59,793 bases of DNA. It comes from Frankia nepalensis. Lineage in GTDB: Bacteria > Actinomycetota > Actinomycetes > Frankiales > Frankiaceae. Position numbers and translations under genes: made by a program. Below, piece by piece: positions 18,522 to 41,681 of the stretch. The notes beneath the pieces were generated by a model. It was not told the DNA's origin, searched no databases, and saw nothing but the letters and a program-made list of their open reading frames with translations. How positions within the stretch are numbered: the stretch's first letter is position 1; each line of letters opens with the position of its first letter. Where the stretch lies: the NCBI RefSeq assembly GCF_016786325.1, contig NZ_JADWYU010000089.1:1-59793 (forward strand). Direction: 5' to 3'.

Positions 18522-19004
18522 TCAGGCGGTTTCCGCCGGGCCCTCGGCGACGATCAGGTCCTCCAGGTTGCGCATCGAGGCCTGGAACGACCGGCGCAGG
18601 CCGGGGCGCTGGAGCCGGTCGATCAGCCGCCCGACCGGGCCGAGGCCCGGCCGGTAGCGGACCGTGTAGGTGAACCTCGTCCCCTCGCCGCCGTCGACCT
18701 GGACCGGCTCGAGCTCGAACACGTTGGTCATGTCGTGCATCGGGGCGAAACCGGTCCCGGTGTCGACCCGCCGGCGCGGCGGGTCGATCCGCTCGACGGT
18801 CCAGGTGGACCTGGTAGTCAGCGGCCCGACGGTCCGGTTGCGTTCCGAGTAGGTCCGGCCGACGGTCGCCGCGCCGTGGTGGTCGGTGACCTCGAGCACG
18901 CCGACGACCCATTCCGCGTACCGGTCGGTCGCGTCGATCACCTCCCACACCCGGGCGACGGGCACGGCGAGCACGGCGGTCTCGCTGACCTCGGTGAGTG
19001 GCAC
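18522..19004 (-). CDS. SRPBCC family protein (polyketide cyclase/dehydrase-like)
   Basis: I choose the GTG at 19004 because GGGGAGG precedes it at proper spacing. The 160-aa product shows the SRPBCC pattern: VSETAVLAVPVARVWEVIDA at the start, DRYAEWVVGVLEV, and a C-terminal helix FQASMRNLEDLIVAEG that would cap the hydrophobic pocket. Members bind lipids or aromatic ligands, or act as cyclases and aromatases. It is the last gene of the operon, 77 bp after the amine oxidase. A ligand-carrier or product-shaping role fits, but nothing in the sequence fixes it. Confidence 0.8.
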   Translation of the reverse strand: MPLTEVSETAVLAVPVARVWEVIDATDRYAEWVVGVLEVTDHHGAATVGRTYSERNRTVGPLTTRSTWTVERIDPPRRRVDTGTGFAPMHDMTNVFELEPVQVDGGEGTRFTYTVRYRPGLGPVGRLIDRLQRPGLRRSFQASMRNLEDLIVAEGPAETA

Positions 19005-19081
19005 CTGGTCCTCCCCTGTTTTCTCGGCGTCCGGTCCGGCCGCCCCAGCCCTCGCGCCGTCAGCCCGCGGTCGGCCGGCGG

Positions 19082-20458
19082 TCAGTCGGCGGCGGCCAGG
19101 ACCGCGCGCGCGGTGTCCCGTCCCGAGCGCACCGCGCCGTCCATGTAGCCGTTCCAGTAGTCGGCGTGCTCGGCCCCGGCGAAGTGGACCCGGCCGAACG
19201 GCCGGTCGCGCCACGGCCCCAGCGCGGTCAGCACGCCCGGCGCGGCGGCGGCGGTCGGGCCGCCCAGCGTCCACGGCTCGGCCGTCCAGTCCTGCTCGAA
19301 GTACTCCCGGGGCCGCAGGGCACGGCGCCCGGCGACCTGGGCGAAGGCGCGCAGCACGGCGCCCCGGCGGTGCCGGGCCGGGCGGCCGGCCCAGGCCCGC
19401 CACTGCCGGCCGCCGAGGAAGCCCATCAGCACCCCTGGGCCGTCGCCGGGGGGCGAGTTGTCGAACATCGAGCAGACCGTCGACCCGGCGCGGAAGACGC
19501 CCTGCCCGTTCAGGCCGTCCGCCCGCCAGAACGGCTCGTCGTAGACGGCCTCGCACTTCGCCAGCGCCCCGAAGGCGAGCCGGCCGAACAGCGCCTCCTG
19601 CTGGGGCGGCAGCCGGGGCGACCAGCTGACCCGGGCGGCGAGCACCGGCGGCACGGCGAGCACCACGTGCCTCGCCGTCCAGGCGCCGGCGTCGGACCGG
19701 ACGGTCACCGACCGGCCGTCCTGCTCGACGGCGCGGACCGGCGCGCCGAGCACCACCCGCCCGTCGAGCCGCCGCGCCAGCCGCACGGCGAGCAGCTGCG
19801 AGCCGCCGTGGAAGCGGAGCTCCTGGGCGCCGCCGGCGACGGCGATCCCCCGGTCGATCGTGCCCGGGGTGTGCTCGTCCCCCATGCCGGCGATGTAGTG
19901 CAGGCTGAACAGCAGCGACGCCTCGGCCGCCGTCGCGCCGTAGGCGGAGCCCAGGAAGACGTCGACCAGGTCGAGGCCGCCGGTGCCGGCCGTGACGCGC
20001 CGCAGCCAGGTGGCGAAGGTCGTCCCGTCCCAGCGCCGCGCGTGCCGCGCCGTCCACGGCTCCTCGAGGGGGATCGTCCGGGCGAGCCGGTTCATCCGGG
20101 CCATCGCGAGCCCCAGGCCGGGCAGCGCCAGCGGGTCCGGCGGGATGTCGCCGCCGAACCGCCGGGCCCGGCCGCCGTGGACGTAGACGCTGTCGCCCGC
20201 CGCGTAGGTCGGGAACGTCGCGACCCCGAGCTCGGCGGCGAGGCCGAGCACCTGGTTCTGGGTCGGCCCGACGAACTGCCCGCCGGCCTCGGCCACCAGC
20301 CCGTCGCCGAGGTCGTGGTTGACGAGCCGCCCGCCGACCCGGTCTCGGGCCTCGAGCACGACGACGTCGCGGCCGGCGGTGACCAGCGCGTCCGCCGCGG
20401 TCAGGCCGGCGAGCCCGGCGCCGACCACGACGACGTCGGCCGCCCGCGACACGCTCAC
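19082..20458 (-). CDS. Flavin-containing amine oxidase
   Basis: The 458-aa protein starts with the FAD-binding motif VVVVGAGLAGLTAADAL, then EARDRVGGR and GGQFVGPTQNQVLGL, and ends with the second FAD contact VHFAGAEHADYWNGYMDGA. This is the monoamine oxidase/polyamine oxidase type, which oxidises an amine to an imine with release of H2O2. No signal peptide is seen. Its GTG start overlaps the stop of the PfkB kinase gene by 4 bp (GTGA), so the two are translationally coupled. Together with the kinase and aldolase it suggests deamination of an amino-containing sugar or polyol, but that is inference. Related flavoenzymes can also desaturate hydrocarbons. Confidence 0.88.
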   Translation of the reverse strand: MSVSRAADVVVVGAGLAGLTAADALVTAGRDVVVLEARDRVGGRLVNHDLGDGLVAEAGGQFVGPTQNQVLGLAAELGVATFPTYAAGDSVYVHGGRARRFGGDIPPDPLALPGLGLAMARMNRLARTIPLEEPWTARHARRWDGTTFATWLRRVTAGTGGLDLVDVFLGSAYGATAAEASLLFSLHYIAGMGDEHTPGTIDRGIAVAGGAQELRFHGGSQLLAVRLARRLDGRVVLGAPVRAVEQDGRSVTVRSDAGAWTARHVVLAVPPVLAARVSWSPRLPPQQEALFGRLAFGALAKCEAVYDEPFWRADGLNGQGVFRAGSTVCSMFDNSPPGDGPGVLMGFLGGRQWRAWAGRPARHRRGAVLRAFAQVAGRRALRPREYFEQDWTAEPWTLGGPTAAAAPGVLTALGPWRDRPFGRVHFAGAEHADYWNGYMDGAVRSGRDTARAVLAAAD

Positions 20459-21459
20459 GGCCGGCCCGGCGCCGGCCCGGTCGGCACGGGCGCGAGCGCC
20501 ACGGTGGGCGCGGTCGCGGCGAACTCCAGGACGGCGGCCAGGTCGAACTCGCCGTGGTCGGTGCCGAGTCCGCCCGCGGTGAACGCGGCGCTGGCGCAGC
20601 CGATCACGGCCGCCTGCCGCGGTGGCCGGCCGAGCGCGAGGGCCCGCAGGAAGCCGGCGGAGAACGAGTCACCGCACCCGGAGGTGTCGACCACCTCGAC
20701 CGCGAACGCCGGGACGTGGTCCACGCTGTCGGCGGTCACCACCGTCGCGCCGGCGGCGCCCGCGGTGGCGACCACGCAGCCGGCGCCCCGGGCCAGCAGC
20801 GCCCGGCAGGCGTCGACGAGGGTGGCCTCGCCGGTCCAGCCGAGCACCTGTTCGTCGTTGGGCAGCAGGTAGTCGACGTGCGGCAGCGCGTCGGCGATCC
20901 ACTCGAGCATGCCGGGATCGGCGGGCGCGATCGAGTCGAGCGAGGTCGTCACGCCGTGCTCCCGGGCGAAGGCGAGGATCCGCCCGGCCGCCTCGCCTCC
21001 CATGAACTCCGGCCCGCCCAGGTGCAGGTGGGTCGCGGCGGCGATGGCGTCCCACGGAGCGTCGTCCGGCCCGTACGTGCCGTTGGCGCCGATCACGTGG
21101 AACGCGGGCCGCGAGCCGTCGGGGCGGATCGGCAGCACGCTGGCGGAGGTCTGCGCGCCGGCACGCCGCACGATCAGCGAGGTGTCCACCCCGCCGCGGC
21201 CGAGCAGGGCGAGCAGTTGGTCGCCGATCGCGTCCGTGCCGACGGCGCCGGCGCCGCGGACGGTCGCGCCCAGCTTGGCGAGCACCAGCGCGGTCCCTCC
21301 GGCGGGGCCGGCCGCCGACACGCGGATCTGCTCGACGAGCTGCCCGTCCTGCCCGGCGGGGATCTCCTCGACCGGGCGCACCAGCGTGTCGAGCACGTGC
21401 GCGCCGAGCGCCACGACGGTCATGGCCGCCTCGCCGGTCGGGTCAGTCGTCGACGTCAT
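20455..21459 (-). CDS. PfkB family carbohydrate kinase
   Basis: The 334-aa product has both PfkB signatures: AGPAGGTALVLAKLGA near the N-terminus and DTSGCGDSFSAGFLRALALG near the C-terminus, where the Asp after Gly is the catalytic base. It would phosphorylate a sugar or sugar-like alcohol with ATP in the cytoplasm. I take the ATG at 21459, preceded by GAGGAG. It overlaps the end of the aldolase gene by 17 bp; an ATG at 21423 is an alternative. In the operon it could provide the phosphorylated substrate for the class II aldolase. The specific sugar is unknown. Confidence 0.88.
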   Translation of the reverse strand: MTSTTDPTGEAAMTVVALGAHVLDTLVRPVEEIPAGQDGQLVEQIRVSAAGPAGGTALVLAKLGATVRGAGAVGTDAIGDQLLALLGRGGVDTSLIVRRAGAQTSASVLPIRPDGSRPAFHVIGANGTYGPDDAPWDAIAAATHLHLGGPEFMGGEAAGRILAFAREHGVTTSLDSIAPADPGMLEWIADALPHVDYLLPNDEQVLGWTGEATLVDACRALLARGAGCVVATAGAAGATVVTADSVDHVPAFAVEVVDTSGCGDSFSAGFLRALALGRPPRQAAVIGCASAAFTAGGLGTDHGEFDLAAVLEFAATAPTVALAPVPTGPAPGRP

Positions 21460-22159
21460 GGCGCGCTGGCTCCTCGGGGGTCGCGGGATGGGTACTGCCG
21501 TAGGCGCGGCGGGTGGCGGCGGCCACGACCGCCTGCTGGGCCTCGGCGTCCAGCGCCCTCGGGGTGCCGATGGACGCCGCTCGCCAGTAGAGCTCGCAGG
21601 CCCATTCGAGCAGCTCGGTCTGCTCGACGGCGCCGCCCAGGGAGCCGGCGTGGGTGAGCGCGCCGTGGTTGGCCATCAGCGCCGCCGCCCGGCCGTCGAG
21701 CGCCGCCAGGACCGCCTCGGCCAGCTCCGGCGTGCCGAACGTGGCGTAGGGCGCGACCCGGACGGTGCCGCCGAGCAGCAGCATCTGGTAGTGCACGCAC
21801 GGCAGCTCGTCGACGACCAGCCCGACGGCGGTGGCCATCGGCGCGTGGGTGTGCACGACCGCGCCCGCGCCGTACCGGCGGTAGACGCCCAGGTGCAGGC
21901 CGAGCTCGGAGGTCGGCGCGAGGGTGCCGCCGACCACCCGCCCGTCGAGGTCGACCACGCTGACCTGGTCGGCCGTCAGCTCCTCGAACCGGGCGCCGGT
22001 CGCCGTCACCGCGACCAGCTCCCCCACCCGGACGCTGACGTTGCCCGCCGTGCCGAGGACCAGGCGACGGGCCGCGAGCAGCCGGCAGGCTTGCGCGACC
22101 TCGGCGCGCGCCGCCTCGAGCGCCGGCGGCATCGCCGGGTCCGGCCGCTGCCGCGACAC
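21443..22159 (-). CDS. Class II aldolase/adducin family protein
   Basis: The 238-aa chain starts with GTG at 22159, two bases after the transporter stop. It shows the metal-binding HTHAPMATAVG, the preceding TSELGLHLGVYR with the catalytic-type Glu, NVSVRVGELVAVTATGA for phosphate binding and NHGALTHAGSL for the third metal His. The relatives are L-fuculose-1-phosphate and L-ribulose-5-phosphate enzymes, which cleave or epimerise sugar phosphates. In this operon, cleavage of the kinase product into a three-carbon phosphate and an aldehyde is the simplest model. Confidence 0.88.
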   Translation of the reverse strand: MSRQRPDPAMPPALEAARAEVAQACRLLAARRLVLGTAGNVSVRVGELVAVTATGARFEELTADQVSVVDLDGRVVGGTLAPTSELGLHLGVYRRYGAGAVVHTHAPMATAVGLVVDELPCVHYQMLLLGGTVRVAPYATFGTPELAEAVLAALDGRAAALMANHGALTHAGSLGGAVEQTELLEWACELYWRAASIGTPRALDAEAQQAVVAAATRRAYGSTHPATPEEPARHDVDD

Positions 22160-22161
22160 GG

Positions 22162-24444
22162 CTACCGCTCCGCCCGCGGCGGTGGCGCGGCGGGCGGCGG
22201 GTCTCCGGAGGGCTCGGCGGCGGACGGCTCGTCGGCCGGCGGTTCCTGGACTGGCGGTTCCTGGACGACCGGGGCCTGGGCCGCCGGGACCCGCACCGCT
22301 GGAGCCAGGACCGTCGGGACCGCCGTGGGCGTGGGCGGGGCGGCGGCGATCTGGGCGATCGCGGCGTCGACCGCCGCCCGGTGCTCGGCGGCGACGCGGC
22401 GCGCGGTGCGCGGTCGCCACGCCCCGGCCATCAGGAAGATCATCGGGATGAACACGACCTCGCCCGCGACCGCGATCCAGAAGTAGGTCTGCCACTGCCC
22501 TGGCGAGTCGTCGACGGCCTTCGCCACCTCCGGGCCGCTGGCCTCCAGGTAGCGCAGGACCCCCTGTACGACCGGGTCCTGCAGCGGGGTGCCGTACTCG
22601 TCGAGGAACGCGAGGTCGGCCTCGGGCACCTCCGACAGCGCCGTCAGGTCGTCGGCGGCGCGCAGCACCGCCTCGCCGTCGGTGAGCAGGAAGGCCAGGT
22701 CGTCGGCGGGCATCGCCAGCAGGGCGTCGAGGCGGGCCGGTGCCTGTCCCGCGGGGATGCCCAGGCCCGCGGCGATCTGCTCGGTGGCCTCGGCGCGCGC
22801 CGCCGGGTCGCCCGGCGCGGCCGCCAGCGCGGCCCGGGTGTCCGGGTTCAGCGTTCGCGCCGTCGCGGTCGCCTCGGCGTTGGCCTCGCCGAGCAGCACG
22901 GCGCGGATCACCTCGTCGACGGTGCGCCCGGACAGCTCGCTGACCGCGGTGGCCTGCACCGTCAGGTCGTCCGGGCGCGCGGTGAGCGCCTCCTGGGTGG
23001 CGGGGCTGAGCGTGGCCGCGGTGGCGAGCTCCGCCTCGTAGCGCGTCGCCAGCGACTGGACCCTGGTGACGATCTCGGGGTCGGCGGCGACGGCCTTCAC
23101 GACGGCGTTCTGCCTGGCGTCCAGCCGCGGGTCGGCCCCGTCCACGATCGCCTGCACCGTGGGGCCGTCCTGCACGAGCGGGGTCACGGTGGTCACGACG
23201 TACGGGAGCAGGAACGTCGAGAGGGTCACGACGACCCGGATCGTCAGTCCCCACAGGGCGAGGCCGGTGGCGGTGAGCGCCGGGTTGCGGCGCTCGACCG
23301 TCTCCGTGAAGCCGGCCATCCAGGGCGCGAACGCGAGGCCCAGCGACAGCGCCAGCGGGACGAGGATCGCGACGAACGTGTAGTAGCTGGTGTCCGGTTG
23401 CCCGGTCCGGTCGATCAGCAGAAGCGTGCTGACGATCGCGCCGACGGCCCCGACGAGCATGAACGGCTTGCGGACACCGAGCCGGTCCGAGAACAGGCCG
23501 ATGAGGATCAGCGCGGCGGTCTGGGCGCCCCACATCCAGTTCCCGAGCGCGTTGGCCTGCGAGGTGCTGAAGCCGAAGACGGTCTGGAAGAAGATCGGGA
23601 AGAAGCCGACCGCGACGAAGTAAATGAAGAGGAAGAGGCTGATCGCGACGGCGGACCCGACGATGTCCAGGCGCAGCATCTGGCGGAACGGCCGGCGCAG
23701 CGCCGCGTCGACGTCGAGCCCTCGCGCCCTGGCCTCGACGAGGGCACGGTCGCGCTCGCTGACCATCACCTGGTCGCGCAGCGCCGGCGCCAGCTCACGC
23801 AGGAACAGCAGCGCGACGACGAACACGCCGAGGCCCGCGAGGCCGGCGATCAGGTACTGGTCCTGCCAGTTCTCGATGTCGTCGGCGGTGTTGCTCACCA
23901 CGGCGCTGGTGACCAGGCTGCCGGCGACCGGGCCCACCGTCCAGAACCCCATCGCGGTGGCGCGCCCGACCTGAGGGCTGAAGTCGCGGACGAGCGCCGC
24001 GGTCGCGACGAGCACGGTGCCCTCGAACGCGCCGAGCAGGGTGTAGCAGACCCCGACCGCCCAGGCGGACTCGGCGACGGGGAAACCGAGCACGCAGACC
24101 AGGGCGCACAGCAGCACGCCCACGGTCACGACGTTCGCCCGCCCGTAGCGGTCGCAGACCCCGGCGGCGAGCGAGGTGAGCGCGCTCGCCAGCGCGGACA
24201 CCACGTTGATGTTGACGAAGAACCGGAACGACATGCCGGTGCTCTGGAGCACCTGCTCGCTGACTCCGCTGATCAGGTAGTACTGGTAGTAGAACAAGAT
24301 CGTCGTGAGCACGGCGATCGACAGGTAGGCCACGCGCGCCCGGGGACCGGGCAGATGGGCCAGCTCTCGCCGCCACAGGCGGCTGACCCCGGGCGACAGT
24401 CCCTCGGAGCGCGGTGACTGGTCCGCGTGCGTGGCTGTGCTCAT
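22162..24444 (-). CDS. MFS transporter with large extracytoplasmic insert
   Basis: The 760-aa protein is far longer than the usual 400-450. From the ATG at 24444, the first eleven helices (start YLSIAVLTTILFYYQYYL; DRYGRANVV between helices 2 and 3) cover about residues 35-415. Then comes a 230-residue hydrophilic Ala/Asp/Thr-rich segment (about 420-650), followed by one last helix (FWIAVAGEVVFIPMIFLMAG) and a Pro/Ala-rich cytoplasmic tail of some 75 residues. With normal topology the insert faces outside. The gene leads the operon of aldolase, kinase, amine oxidase and SRPBCC protein and lies divergent to a TetR gene. It probably imports that pathway's substrate. Confidence 0.88.
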   Translation of the reverse strand: MSTATHADQSPRSEGLSPGVSRLWRRELAHLPGPRARVAYLSIAVLTTILFYYQYYLISGVSEQVLQSTGMSFRFFVNINVVSALASALTSLAAGVCDRYGRANVVTVGVLLCALVCVLGFPVAESAWAVGVCYTLLGAFEGTVLVATAALVRDFSPQVGRATAMGFWTVGPVAGSLVTSAVVSNTADDIENWQDQYLIAGLAGLGVFVVALLFLRELAPALRDQVMVSERDRALVEARARGLDVDAALRRPFRQMLRLDIVGSAVAISLFLFIYFVAVGFFPIFFQTVFGFSTSQANALGNWMWGAQTAALILIGLFSDRLGVRKPFMLVGAVGAIVSTLLLIDRTGQPDTSYYTFVAILVPLALSLGLAFAPWMAGFTETVERRNPALTATGLALWGLTIRVVVTLSTFLLPYVVTTVTPLVQDGPTVQAIVDGADPRLDARQNAVVKAVAADPEIVTRVQSLATRYEAELATAATLSPATQEALTARPDDLTVQATAVSELSGRTVDEVIRAVLLGEANAEATATARTLNPDTRAALAAAPGDPAARAEATEQIAAGLGIPAGQAPARLDALLAMPADDLAFLLTDGEAVLRAADDLTALSEVPEADLAFLDEYGTPLQDPVVQGVLRYLEASGPEVAKAVDDSPGQWQTYFWIAVAGEVVFIPMIFLMAGAWRPRTARRVAAEHRAAVDAAIAQIAAAPPTPTAVPTVLAPAVRVPAAQAPVVQEPPVQEPPADEPSAAEPSGDPPPAAPPPRAER

Positions 24445-24510: not shown

Positions 24511-24523
24511 TGAAACTGATTCA
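24511..24523. promoter_or_regulatory. Inverted repeat TGAA-N5-TTCA between MFS operon and TetR gene
   Basis: TGAAACTGATTCA is a short dyad in an AT-richer patch 67 bp upstream of the MFS start and 208 bp upstream of the TetR start. A second TTCA follows at 24526. It is a reasonable operator candidate for the divergent TetR protein, though short enough to occur by chance. Confidence 0.3.
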
Positions 24524-24730: not shown

Positions 24731-25483
24731 ATGACGGCACCGAACGGCGCGGCGATGGCGCGGCTCACCGCGCTACGCACGACGCCACGGCAGGAACGGG
24801 GCCGGGCGAAGCTCGCCCGGATCATCGCCGCCGCCGACCAGATCATGGCGGCCGAGGGCGCGGACGCGGTGACGACGACGCGCCTCGCGGCCGACGCGGG
24901 AGTCTCCGTCGGCACCGTCTACCGCTACCTGCCGCACCGGGGCGCCGTCATCGAGGCGCTCGCCCAGCACTATCTCGGCCTGCTCGAGGAGCAGCTCGAG
25001 TCGCTGATCGACGCCTTCGAGGCCGGCGCGTGGGGGCAGGACGATCTGGCCGGCGACGCCGTGGACGCCTTCGCCGAGTTCTACCGGACCCACCCCGGGT
25101 TCCGTGCGCTGTGGTTCGGCCGGCACCTGACGGCCGAGACCCGGGAACTCGACCGCGCCCACAAGCACACCATGGCCAGCCGGCTCGCCGTGCTCGTCGC
25201 GCACGGAACCGGCCTCGACGGCGACCAGCTGCCACGGGTCAGCCAGGTGATGCAGTTGGCGACCGACGCGGTCATCCAGGAGGCGTTCCGGGTCGACCCG
25301 GACGGCGACGAGGCGTTGCTGCGGCAGCTCAAGACCATGATCCGTGGCTATGTCGCGGCACTCGCCGCGGCGCCTCCCTCGTCGTCGGCGGCGGCGATCC
25401 GCGGGGTGCAGCCGGAGCCCGCGGGCTCGGACCCCGACGCCCGGCCCGTTCCGCGCGGCGGCCGGATGCCCGGCGAGCCTTAG
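24731..25483 (+). CDS. TetR family transcriptional regulator
   Basis: The 250-aa product has the N-terminal helix-turn-helix typical of TetR (RIIAAADQIMAAEGADAVTT, then LAADAGVSVGTVYRYLPHR, about residues 33-80). A helical ligand-binding domain and a Pro/Ser-rich tail follow. The start at 24731 is preceded by GAGGTGG at short spacing; the frame is open further upstream (24533) without a better start. It is divergent from the MFS-aldolase-kinase-oxidase operon and is the natural candidate to repress it until the substrate is present. Confidence 0.85.
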   Translation: MTAPNGAAMARLTALRTTPRQERGRAKLARIIAAADQIMAAEGADAVTTTRLAADAGVSVGTVYRYLPHRGAVIEALAQHYLGLLEEQLESLIDAFEAGAWGQDDLAGDAVDAFAEFYRTHPGFRALWFGRHLTAETRELDRAHKHTMASRLAVLVAHGTGLDGDQLPRVSQVMQLATDAVIQEAFRVDPDGDEALLRQLKTMIRGYVAALAAAPPSSSAAAIRGVQPEPAGSDPDARPVPRGGRMPGEP

Positions 25484-28376: not shown

Positions 28377-28423
28377 CTGGGTAGCTCGACGGATGCGTGA
28401 CGCCTCGGTTCGGGAGGCTGGTG

Positions 28424-29263
28424 ATGGTCGAGCGACGGCGGTATCCGACGGATCTGTCCGATGCCGAATGGGAGTTGATCGCTCCGCTGATTCCTGGTCC
28501 CAGGCCGGGTGGTCGGCCGCCGGCGCATGAGCGTCGGGAGATCGTGAATGCGTTGGCGTACTGGATACGGGCGGGGTGTGCGTGGCGGTTGTTGCCGCAT
28601 GACCTGCCGCCCTGGCAGACGGTGTACCACTACTGGCGGTGCTGGCGGATCGAGGGCCGTTGGGAGCAGATCCTGGCCCGGCTACGGGAACGCGACCGTG
28701 TCGGGGGCGGCCGGGACCCGACTCCGACGGCGGGTGTCCTGGACAGTCAGAGTGTGCGCGCCACCGACCGGGGTGGGCTGCACGGCTACGACGGCGGCAA
28801 GAAAGTCCCTGGTATCAAGCGTCATCTGCTTGTCGACACCGGCGGGACCGTGCTGGTGGCCTGCGTCAGCCCGGCCAACGTGGACGACCGGGCGGCGGCG
28901 ATGGTGGTGCTGTCCCGGGCCTGTGACCTCTTCATTCGGTTGCGGCAGGTGTGGGCTGATCAGGGCTACCGCGGCCATTTCCGCGACTGGGCCAACGACG
29001 CGGTCGGTATCGATGTCCAGGTTGTCGCCCGCCGTGACGGCGGATTCCGCCATACCTGGGCCAAGGTCGGGGCACCTGCGCCGGAGGTGCCGGCGTTCGC
29101 GGTGGTGCCTCGCCGGTGGGTGATCGAGCGCACGTTCGCGTGGCTGGGGAAATACCGCCGCCTGTCCAAGGACTACGAATACCTGGCCGCCACCGCCGAG
29201 AACGCCATCTACCTGGCAATGATCATGATCCTTCTACGCCGCCTCACCGGTACGCCACCCTGA
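28424..29263 (+). CDS. IS5 family transposase (DDE)
   Basis: The 279-aa protein starts at ATG 28424 behind GGGAGG and reads MVERRRYPTDLSDAEWELIA, a typical start of this family; a GTG at 28397 is in frame upstream. The DDE triad can be placed: Asp in TAGVLDSQSVRATDRG, Asp in VWADQGYRGHF and Glu in RRWVIERTFAWLGKYRRLSK, the last inside the conserved Y/R-x3-R-x6-K-like signature. It cuts and joins the element ends. Confidence 0.92.
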   Translation: MVERRRYPTDLSDAEWELIAPLIPGPRPGGRPPAHERREIVNALAYWIRAGCAWRLLPHDLPPWQTVYHYWRCWRIEGRWEQILARLRERDRVGGGRDPTPTAGVLDSQSVRATDRGGLHGYDGGKKVPGIKRHLLVDTGGTVLVACVSPANVDDRAAAMVVLSRACDLFIRLRQVWADQGYRGHFRDWANDAVGIDVQVVARRDGGFRHTWAKVGAPAPEVPAFAVVPRRWVIERTFAWLGKYRRLSKDYEYLAATAENAIYLAMIMILLRRLTGTPP

Positions 29264-40196: not shown

Positions 40197-41681
40197 ATGT
40201 CCTTAGTGCCGCCGGCGGCTGCCGCCTCCACCGGTTCGACCATCGTCAAGGACCGGCTGTTCATCGGCGGGGAATGGCTGTCTCCGGCAAGCGGCCGCAC
40301 GATCAAGGTGATCTCGCCGCACACGGAGGAGGTCATCGCGACCGTCCCGGAGGCGGATGGGACCGACATCGACCGCGCGGTCGCCGCCGCCCGGGCCGCG
40401 TTCGAGGACGGCCCGTGGCCGCGCACCTCGCCGGCCGAGCGGGCCGCGGTGATCCGGGCGGTCAGCGCCGGGATCCAGGCCCGCATGCAGGAGTTCTCCG
40501 ACACGGTGACCGCCGAGATGGGCGCGCCGTCGACCTTCGCGCTGTTCGGCAACACCCTGGCGGCGACGACCGTGCTGGACGGCTACGCCGAACTGCTCGA
40601 CACGTTCCGGTTCGAGGAGGAGCGCGCCGGCATACTGGGGCCGGTCCTGGTCACGAAGGCGCCGGTCGGGGTGTGCGCCGGCATCGTGCCGTGGAACGTG
40701 CCGCTGTTCCTCATCGCGATGAAGATCGGCGCGAGCCTCGCCTCCGGGTCGACGATGGTCATCAAGTCGGCGCCCGAGACGCCGCTGACCGGCTACCTGC
40801 TCGCCGAGGTGCTGGAGTCCGTTGGCCTGCCACCGGGCGTCATCAACATCATCACCGCCGACCGGGAGAACAGCGAGCTGCTGGTACGCCACCCCGGCCT
40901 GGACAAGGTCTCGTTCACGGGCAGCACCGCCGTCGGCCGCCGGATCGGCGCGATCTGTGGTGAGCAGCTCAAGCGCTGCACGCTGGAGCTCGGCGGCAAG
41001 TCGGCGGCGATCCTCCTCGACGACGCCGACCTCGGCGCGGCGCTGCCGGCGCTGCTGTCGGCCGCGTTCCTCAACACGGGCCAGGTCTGCGCCGCCCAGA
41101 CCCGGGTGCTCGCGCCTCGTTCCCGCTACCAGGAGGTCGTCGACGGCCTGGCCGACCTGGTCGGCGGCGCGAAGGTCGGCGACCCGGCCGATCCCGAGAC
41201 CCTGGTCGGCCCGCTCGTGGCCGCCCGCCAGCGGGACCGCGTCGAGGGCCTCATCCACGCGGGCGTCGACGAGGGCGCCCGGCTGGTGCGCGGCGGCGGG
41301 CGGCCGGCCGCGCTGGACCGGGGCTGGTACGTCGAGCCGACGCTGTTCGCCGACGTCGACAACCGCATGCGCATCGCCCAGGAGGAGATCTTCGGCCCCG
41401 TCCTGTCGGTCATCCCCTTCGACGGCGAGGACGAGGCGGTCCGCATCGCCAACGACTCGGCCTACGGCCTGTCCGGGTCGGTCTGGACCGGCGACCCCGC
41501 CCACGGCGCCGCCGTCGGCCGGCGGGTCCGCACCGGCGTCCTCGCGGTCAACTCCGGCACGGTGGTCGACCCGAAGAACCCGTTCGGCGGCTTCAAGCAG
41601 TCCGGGATCGGCCGCGAGCTCGGCCCCGAGGGCCTCGAGGCCTATCTGGAGACCCAGAGCATCGTCCTGCCCAAGGGCTGA
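40197..41681 (+). CDS. NAD(P)-dependent aldehyde dehydrogenase
   Basis: The 494-aa chain has full family length. It shows DRLFIGGEWLSPASGRTIKV, GIVPWNVPLFLIAMKIG (cofactor site), FTGSTAVGRRI, catalytic-base LELGGKSAAI, nucleophile Cys in NTGQVCAAQTRV and EEIFGPVLSVIPF. It oxidises an aldehyde to the acid in the cytoplasm. The strong hairpin at 41714-41765 closes the transcript. The substrate is not evident; the aldehyde could come from the nearby P450 or LLM enzymes. Confidence 0.93.
   Translation: MSLVPPAAAASTGSTIVKDRLFIGGEWLSPASGRTIKVISPHTEEVIATVPEADGTDIDRAVAAARAAFEDGPWPRTSPAERAAVIRAVSAGIQARMQEFSDTVTAEMGAPSTFALFGNTLAATTVLDGYAELLDTFRFEEERAGILGPVLVTKAPVGVCAGIVPWNVPLFLIAMKIGASLASGSTMVIKSAPETPLTGYLLAEVLESVGLPPGVINIITADRENSELLVRHPGLDKVSFTGSTAVGRRIGAICGEQLKRCTLELGGKSAAILLDDADLGAALPALLSAAFLNTGQVCAAQTRVLAPRSRYQEVVDGLADLVGGAKVGDPADPETLVGPLVAARQRDRVEGLIHAGVDEGARLVRGGGRPAALDRGWYVEPTLFADVDNRMRIAQEEIFGPVLSVIPFDGEDEAVRIANDSAYGLSGSVWTGDPAHGAAVGRRVRTGVLAVNSGTVVDPKNPFGGFKQSGIGRELGPEGLEAYLETQSIVLPKG

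Follow-up and report, generated by a model that had tools for sequence, protein, structure and literature searches.

In sugar catabolism by ketohexokinase and aldolase, as well as in the fuculose 1-phosphate and 5-deoxyribulose 1-phosphate aldolase pathways, a ketose is converted into a ketose 1-phosphate, which is then split into dihydroxyacetone phosphate (DHAP) and an aldehyde. For the Pseudomonas aeruginosa sphBCD genes, oxidation followed by the action of a threonine-aldolase-like pyridoxal phosphate (PLP) enzyme, yielding glycine and an aldehyde, has been proposed (PMC3900636). FumI is described as removing the C2 amine from hydrolysed fumonisin B1, a sphinganine analogue (PMC2933618; PMC9858248), and the same C2 deamination is ascribed to an amine oxidase in yeasts (PMC2933618). 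Here, a five-gene operon of Frankia nepalensis and its divergent TetR-family regulator were compared with these systems. The operon lies in a stretch of 59,793 nucleotides, referred to as the window, and encodes a transporter of the MFS family, a class II aldolase (Ald), a PfkB-family kinase (PfkB), a flavin amine oxidase (AmOx) and an SRPBCC protein.

The operon is probably a catabolic module for 2-amino-1,3-diols, most likely the sphingoid bases sphinganine, sphingosine or plant phytosphingosine, and it probably serves detoxification as well. We infer every reaction, the order of the steps, the substrate and the ligand of the regulator from sequence comparison. The transporter would import either the sphingoid base itself or the ketone formed by its deamination, and AmOx would convert R-CHOH-CH(NH2)-CH2OH and O2 into R-CHOH-CO-CH2OH, NH3 and H2O2. 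In chemical terms, the deaminated product would be a fatty-tailed ketose, since it combines a 1-hydroxy-2-ketone with a 3-hydroxyl. PfkB may phosphorylate the C1 hydroxyl of this 1,3-dihydroxy-2-ketone, as ketohexokinase does with fructose, and Ald would split the ketone 1-phosphate in a retro-aldol reaction into DHAP and R-CHO, like FucA acting on fuculose 1-phosphate. The long-chain aldehyde would be oxidised and enter beta-oxidation; an aldehyde dehydrogenase (ALDH) gene belongs to or adjoins the cluster of certain other species but is absent from the window's operon. The original prediction had already put import, oxidative loss of nitrogen, phosphorylation and aldol cleavage to a triose phosphate and an aldehyde in this order, which fits the comparative evidence. 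The general scheme from a 2-amino-1,3-diol to DHAP and an aldehyde is put forward with good confidence, and a sphingoid base is its likely natural substrate.

Conservation of the kinase-aldolase core and its deaminases

In the following, L-numbers denote fetched loci and G-numbers genomes; some genomes occur in several sets (L182/L296, L192/L297), the sets are not additive, and all Fisher tests ignore the shared ancestry of the genomes. Within the class, PfkB (E<=1e-35) was detected in 31 of 296 genomes and Ald (E<=1e-35) in 68. All 31 PfkB-positive genomes carry Ald somewhere in the genome, compared with 37 of the 265 PfkB-negative ones (p=2e-23). The core, whose conservation in relatives the original prediction had depended on, is conserved. 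AmOx was found at the preset cut-off (E<=1e-85) in 43 of 296 genomes, comprising 21/31 PfkB-positive and 22/265 PfkB-negative genomes; at E<=1e-110, a cut-off picked after a gap had been seen in the scores, the numbers are 16/31 and 1/265. When the window and the L028 genome are left out, the remaining 29 of the 31 PfkB neighbourhoods contain Ald in 17 and AmOx in 6 cases.

The association extends to more distant bacteria. When named genomes were searched with the PfkB alignment and the best 80 loci kept, the matches fell in Streptomyces, Nocardioides, Nocardia, Mycobacterium, Rhodococcus, Gordonia, Dietzia, Amycolatopsis and a few Binatota-type or other metagenome-assembled genomes. At the bit cut-offs, these best 80 loci contain Ald in 62, AmOx in 25, TetR in 41 and SRPBCC in 5 cases. 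Ald and PfkB occur together in 65 of them, on the same strand and at most 300 bp apart in 63 of the 65. In the family of the Gordonia genome G164, PfkB (E<=1e-60) is present in 42 of 281 genomes, and 33 PfkB neighbourhoods outside its genus contain Ald (32), AmOx (17), a window-type SRPBCC (13), a small protein of the L183 type (3 others), an Abhydrolase_3 hydrolase (4), an L183-type ALDH (3), an L183-type MFS (2) and a ceramidase (1).

The oxidase accompanies Ald-PfkB in Frankiaceae, Nocardia, Amycolatopsis, Rhodococcus, Dietzia, Nocardioides and Gordonia, and across these genera AmOx, SRPBCC and TetR recur beside the pair, though not always in the same combination. Nocardia L143 and Amycolatopsis L149 show the window's order Ald-PfkB-AmOx-SRPBCC, and an SRPBCC gene lies beside the oxidase in L092, L121, L122, L143, L149, L158, L182, L192 and L256, as well as in 13 of the 33 neighbourhoods from the family of G164; the protein is perhaps a lipid carrier. 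In Streptomyces jeddahensis (L183), PfkB, MFS, AmOx, a small protein, Ald and ALDH follow each other on one strand. This small protein scores 20.4 of the 27.4 bits of the Polyketide_cyc2 cut-off, while a relative in L288 exceeds it with 29.2. The order ALDH-Ald-PfkB was found in L213 and L214 (Binatus-type and uncultured proteobacterium); besides L183, L213 and L214, where ALDH is part of the gene row, it adjoins the cluster on the opposite strand in L297, L301 and L304.

Closer to the window, the full six-gene set is present in two other Frankiaceae genomes (L027, L028), and a third (L029) lacks SRPBCC only; MFS is the first gene in all three, and such recurrence of the gene order exceeds chance. 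Five further genomes of the window's genus (L030-L034) carry the MFS orthologue (69-72 % identity) without the other cluster genes within the fetched stretches. Since the full set is found in some relatives and the MFS orthologue alone in five, the cluster is a unit subject to gain or loss, and MFS is not exclusive to it.

A class III aminotransferase follows PfkB in place of the oxidase in genomes of family f17, represented among the named genomes by Planobispora, Herbidospora and Microbispora. Of the solved structures, it matches 6hbs best, the 'aminopentol aminotransferase' FumI, with 437.6 bits (next match 182.5) and 50 % identity over 395 residues, and it is nearer to the hydrolysed fumonisin B1 aminotransferase than to glutamate-1-semialdehyde aminomutase, which assigns it to the FumI type. 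Such aminotransferases (E<=1e-80) occur in 12 of 296 genomes. Eleven of these are PfkB-positive, with the gene always within about 10 kb of PfkB; the twelfth (G031) is PfkB-negative and its match reaches only 44 % identity. As either a FumI-type aminotransferase or an oxidase stands there, two unrelated deaminase types, both known to act on sphinganine-like amines, alternate beside one kinase family. The f17 proteins may deaminate hydrolysed fumonisin or a sphingoid base. In L105 (G303), the PfkB-Ald pair and a FumI-type aminotransferase are separated by oligopeptide-type ABC transporter genes, a possible alternative importer.

Operon layout, enzymes and regulator

The window is contig C347 of a 10.7 Mb genome (G000, assembly 96.8 % complete). 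On the minus strand, the operon runs MFS - Ald - PfkB - AmOx - SRPBCC with all five frames open (Table 1). Recomputed from the gene ends, the genes are separated by a 2-bp gap, a 17-bp overlap, a 4-bp overlap and a 77-bp gap. Positions and spacing of the five genes and of the divergent TetR gene agree exactly with the original prediction, and Pfam backs each of the six family names.

Table 1. Features of the operon and its divergent promoter region, with positions in the window
Feature	Position	Strand	Remarks
MFS transporter, 760 aa	22162-24444	-	first gene of operon; Pfam MFS_1 1.2e-25
Helical insert of MFS, residues about 435-650	22495-23142	-	AlphaFold2 (AF2) model blocks with pLDDT 82-91
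Class II aldolase (Ald), FucA/DrdA-like	21443-22159	-	Pfam Aldolase_II 9.1e-48
PfkB-family kinase	20455-21459	-	Pfam PfkB 2.1e-43
MAO-family flavin amine oxidase (AmOx)	19082-20458	-	Pfam Amino_oxidase 4.7e-65
SRPBCC small-ligand-binding protein	18522-19004	-	Pfam Polyketide_cyc2 3e-16
TetR-family regulator, divergent from operon	24731-25483	+	Pfam TetR_N and TetR_C_22
TGAAACTGATTCA, inverted repeat in divergent promoter, probable TetR operator	24511-24523	.	kept in Frankiaceae loci

AmOx belongs to the MAO family, as its GAGLAG motif and the Lys of ALAKCEAVYDEPFW, which we take to be the conserved MAO active-site Lys, align with 8p84 and putrescine oxidases. No paper matching the structure codes 8P84 and 9H5P was found in the open-access literature. 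Judged by eye, oxidases from Gordonia, from f18 and from genomes of the Nocardioides type have export-like N-termini, whereas the window's AmOx has none and would therefore act inside the cell, after uptake. With the exported oxidases, deamination would come first and take place extracellularly. In the f18 genomes, export-tagged amine oxidases were also seen near a flavin-monooxygenase-like gene (L118-L120, L123).

The kinase falls into the PfkB/ribokinase-like kinases by its fold and by the GCGD/GAGD anion-hole motif with the catalytic Asp. Its AF2 model (pLDDT 89) was matched by Foldseek to the ribokinase fold with a TM of about 0.8, and D258, T259, G261, C262, G263 and D264 are invariant among 15 aligned sequences, which keeps the catalytic GCGD block. 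It does not qualify as a sugar-specific ribokinase: it scores 106.6 bits against a cut-off of 299.65 with the NCBIfam ribokinase model, and the sugar-contact Asn residues are replaced. In comparison with the Brucella ribokinase 11bl, two Asn positions are Val and Gly in the window's PfkB, and Val/Ile and Gly across the PfkB group; these are presumably the positions of N14 and N46, which we take to be the ribose contacts of the E. coli ribokinase.

Ald is a FucA-type class II aldolase according to its HxH, its NHG/HHG His, its Glu and the GTAGN/TG/TSE motifs. Among 12 aligned sequences, H103, H105, H165, E85, G39, N40 and G55 are invariant, and in the alignment with FucA structures GTAGNVS, TSE and the HTH and NHG histidines are kept. 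Metal-binding, catalytic Glu and phosphate-binding roles are assumed for these residues by analogy with FucA-type enzymes. The protein stays below the NCBIfam equivalog cut-offs for L-fuculose-phosphate and ribulose-1-phosphate aldolase, with 176.7 of 300 bits for NF053831 and 105.6 of 400.25 bits for TIGR01086.

The TetR-family regulator would bind at TGAAACTGATTCA and keep the operon repressed as long as neither substrate nor product is available. This site is kept in all four Frankiaceae loci, with one base differing in L028, and similar sites occur in Nocardia L181 and L199. A search pattern written from the window's own site was found in 6 of 37 divergent TetR regions, compared with 0.09 expected from simple letter shuffles, and the site is probably the TetR operator. 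It is absent from all Streptomyces regions scanned among these 37. A TetR of the window's kind, mostly with 45-52 % identity, faces Ald-PfkB in Streptomyces without the site, and Streptomyces was dropped as a test of the operator for this absence.

The transporter, which had been called unusual, does carry a helical insert of about 200 residues, which a count of helices in the AF2 model (whole-model pLDDT 71, pTM 0.54) places ahead of the last membrane helix. The insert is shorter in MFS paralogues, and the structural matches of this model are MFS transporters in general. The MFS query was run against 58 genomes, including the window's own, of which 17 had a match, and the neighbourhoods of 20 matches were fetched. 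MFS proteins with a helical insert form a paralogous family in the window's relatives (L030-L034, L036, L040-L046). The paralogue in L030 lies near a fatty-acid-desaturase-fold (AlkB-like) gene and an adenosine deaminase gene, and the one in L036 near CoA-transferase and nitronate-monooxygenase-family genes. Because these neighbours differ, the transporter gives no single answer on the substrate and was dropped as a guide to it.

Elsewhere in the window, an IS4/5-family transposase (DDE_Tnp_1) is encoded at 28397-29263, about 3 kb past the TetR gene. Distant from the operon, an open reading frame at 40197-41681 overlaps an aldehyde-dehydrogenase match (42 % identity to the L085 enzyme); the aldehyde product could be its substrate.

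Ceramidase links, substrate and alternative explanations

Ceramidases free sphingoid bases, and loci in which one occurs together with the oxidase, PfkB and Ald therefore favour a sphingoid base as the substrate. An oxidase in one locus with ceramidase, PfkB and Ald is the strongest pointer to the substrate. In L285 (G395), PfkB, Ald, an amine oxidase and an L183-type small protein lie on one strand, the first three sharing 71 %, 67 % and 42 % identity, respectively, with their counterparts in the window. After the divergent TetR gene comes a ceramidase match, whose start precedes the TetR end by 4 bp. The ceramidase frame (L285:10296-12341) has one in-frame stop near its start, due to either a sequencing error or decay. 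In Nocardia sp. SYP-A9097 (L199), an intact ceramidase frame and a TetR gene are divergent from Ald-PfkB.

A further link was found in Gordonia, where a row of three genes encodes an amine oxidase, whose N-terminus is twin-arginine-like, a TetR-like protein and a neutral ceramidase with both ceramidase domains (L222:4590-8770, G164). Among the ceramidase loci of 20 genomes, only L222 has a match above 60 bits to the oxidase or other cluster genes. Within the 59 genomes of this genus, the ceramidase is present in 53 and the L222-type oxidase (E<=1e-100) in 21; the two genes are 174-914 bp apart in 20 of the 21 and on different contigs in G314. This row looks like a separate extracellular sphingolipid-degrading set. 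PfkB (E<=1e-35) occurs in 17 of the 59 genomes, comprising 11/21 with and 6/38 without the oxidase (p=0.006). One of the latter, G315, has its own SRPBCC-AmOx-TetR beside Ald-PfkB (L256). Moreover, Ald-PfkB in L303 (G416) is adjoined on its own strand by an oxidase that shares 60 % identity with the ceramidase-linked enzyme.

Several observations weigh against a sphingoid base as the substrate or against the coherence of the module. Across the class, ceramidase PF04734 (25 of 296 genomes) shows no clear enrichment among PfkB-positive genomes (5/31 versus 20/265, p=0.16) and was dropped as a genome-wide marker for this reason. It occurs in none of the seven PfkB-positive genomes of f18 (Streptomyces), and only two fetched PfkB neighbourhoods (L199 and the interrupted L285) contain it. 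As no PF04734 match was found at 1e-20 in the window's own genome, the organism would need free sphingoid bases or another amidase. The ceramidase-linked oxidase occurs without PfkB (E<=1e-35) in 10 of its 21 genomes. In L285, the oxidase identity to the window's enzyme is low, and the small protein is not the window's SRPBCC. In the oxidase tree, the ceramidase-linked Gordonia oxidase sits on a long branch, groups with a Streptomyces oxidase (98/96) and is separated from the window's clade by the midpoint root; the ceramidase link thus runs via the shared Ald-PfkB unit and not via oxidase orthology. The MFS transporter is not tied to the pathway, as its orthologue occurs without the cluster. 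Finally, ceramide catabolism does not call for the Abhydrolase_3 hydrolase encoded ahead of the oxidase in Dietzia and some other genomes; this hydrolase leaves room for other 2-amino-1,3-diols.

A gene resembling sphingosine-1-phosphate (S1P) lyase lies near the cluster in 7 of the best 80 named loci. In L085, L089, L091, L093, L141 and other Nocardioides-type loci, this PLP enzyme is convergent with Ald-PfkB; in several of them an MFS_2 transporter accompanies it, and L141 has two lyase copies. A tblastn search with the L085 protein at 1e-6 gave no match in the window. Because L130 (G094) shows a lyase-oxidase neighbourhood without Ald-PfkB in the fetched stretch and without PfkB at 1e-35, the lyase neighbour may reflect old synteny or one syntenic accident. 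It counts as weak evidence for the sphingoid-base assignment, tempered by its convergent orientation.

The chemistry of the proposed route is not specific to long-chain amines. With an aminated sugar or aminopolyol, the substrate suggested in the original prediction, the oxidase would turn a 2-amino-2-deoxy polyol into a ketose, PfkB would form the ketose 1-phosphate and the aldolase would split it. These reactions are identical, and the solved relatives of PfkB and Ald are mostly sugar enzymes. However, the replaced Asn positions in the PfkB group, the FumI-type aminotransferase and the ceramidases linked to the cluster disfavour such a substrate, which we consider rather unlikely. Aryl 2-amino-1,3-diols, such as p-nitrophenylserinol from chloramphenicol, could likewise be freed as amines by an esterase or amidase and pass through the same three steps to DHAP and an aromatic aldehyde. 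This would account for the Abhydrolase_3 hydrolase preceding the oxidase in L092, in Dietzia L182 and in 4 of the 33 loci of G164's family outside its genus, one of which (L296) is the L182 genome; some esterases of this hydrolase family presumably cleave chloramphenicol. Nevertheless, the hydrolase occurs in a minority of the scanned loci and outside the window's operon, and both the ceramidase and the FumI links favour long-chain bases, making aryl diols an improbable natural substrate.

Deamination, by oxidase or FumI, and Ald-PfkB might also be two pathways that are mere neighbours, with PfkB-Ald acting for instance on a deoxy-pentulose. Many Streptomyces and Gordonia carry Ald-PfkB without an adjacent oxidase, and the close solved structures of Ald include 6btd, an enzyme with a role in 5-deoxyribose metabolism. 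Yet in the Streptomyces genus g24, the oxidase (E<=1e-110) is present elsewhere in the genome in 7/7 PfkB-positive genomes and in 0/16 of the other listed ones. Together with the 4-bp overlap of PfkB and the oxidase in the window and the several kinds of deaminase beside the same Ald-PfkB pair, this renders a chance neighbourhood very improbable. A single module that degrades sphingoid bases remains the preferred explanation.

Implications and comparison with described systems

The comparison leads us to favour, with some reservation, an undescribed and widespread bacterial sphingoid-base route that follows the logic of sugar catabolism. It would combine interchangeable C2 deaminases with a PfkB lipid-ketone kinase and an aldolase that forms DHAP and a fatty aldehyde, and the FumI enzymes would have been recruited from this older sphingolipid pathway. 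In the open-access literature, no paper with the gene set or the route to DHAP was found, subscription papers being outside the search. Plants, fungi and animals are rich in sphingolipids, and the disposal of the sphingoid backbone by soil and host-associated actinobacteria seems to be a largely open field. If the route exists, it would provide a function for a PfkB clade now read as generic sugar kinases and explain how the FumI enzymes, studied as a remedy for fumonisin in feed, arose in nature. It would also offer new deaminases to try on sphinganine-like toxins. The Frankiaceae are plant-associated, and the route suggests that such relatives of the window's organism use plant sphingoid bases or shield themselves against them.

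Among the described systems, the ketohexokinase and FucA-type sugar pathways use enzyme families identical to PfkB and Ald, but their substrates are sugars, and both deamination and a ceramidase link are absent. The P. aeruginosa sphBCD genes of the SphR regulon share the subject, being a sphingosine-induced bacterial system for sphingosine degradation with a ceramidase in the regulon, and differ from the window's operon in their enzymes and their regulator. Fumonisin catabolism is known as toxin degradation, and the word 'aldolase' is absent from the main text of PMC2933618. Moreover, hydrolysed fumonisin B1 has, according to its systematic name, no C1 hydroxyl and could therefore not be phosphorylated at C1. 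What it has in common with the proposed route is that an aminotransferase or an oxidase strips a sphinganine-like molecule of its C2 amine (PMC2933618, PMC9858248). The S1P lyase route resembles the operon in its C1 phosphate and the subsequent C2-C3 cleavage to a long-chain aldehyde. There, the amine is retained and a PLP lyase releases phosphoethanolamine, whereas in the window's operon the amine would be removed first and a metal aldolase would yield DHAP.

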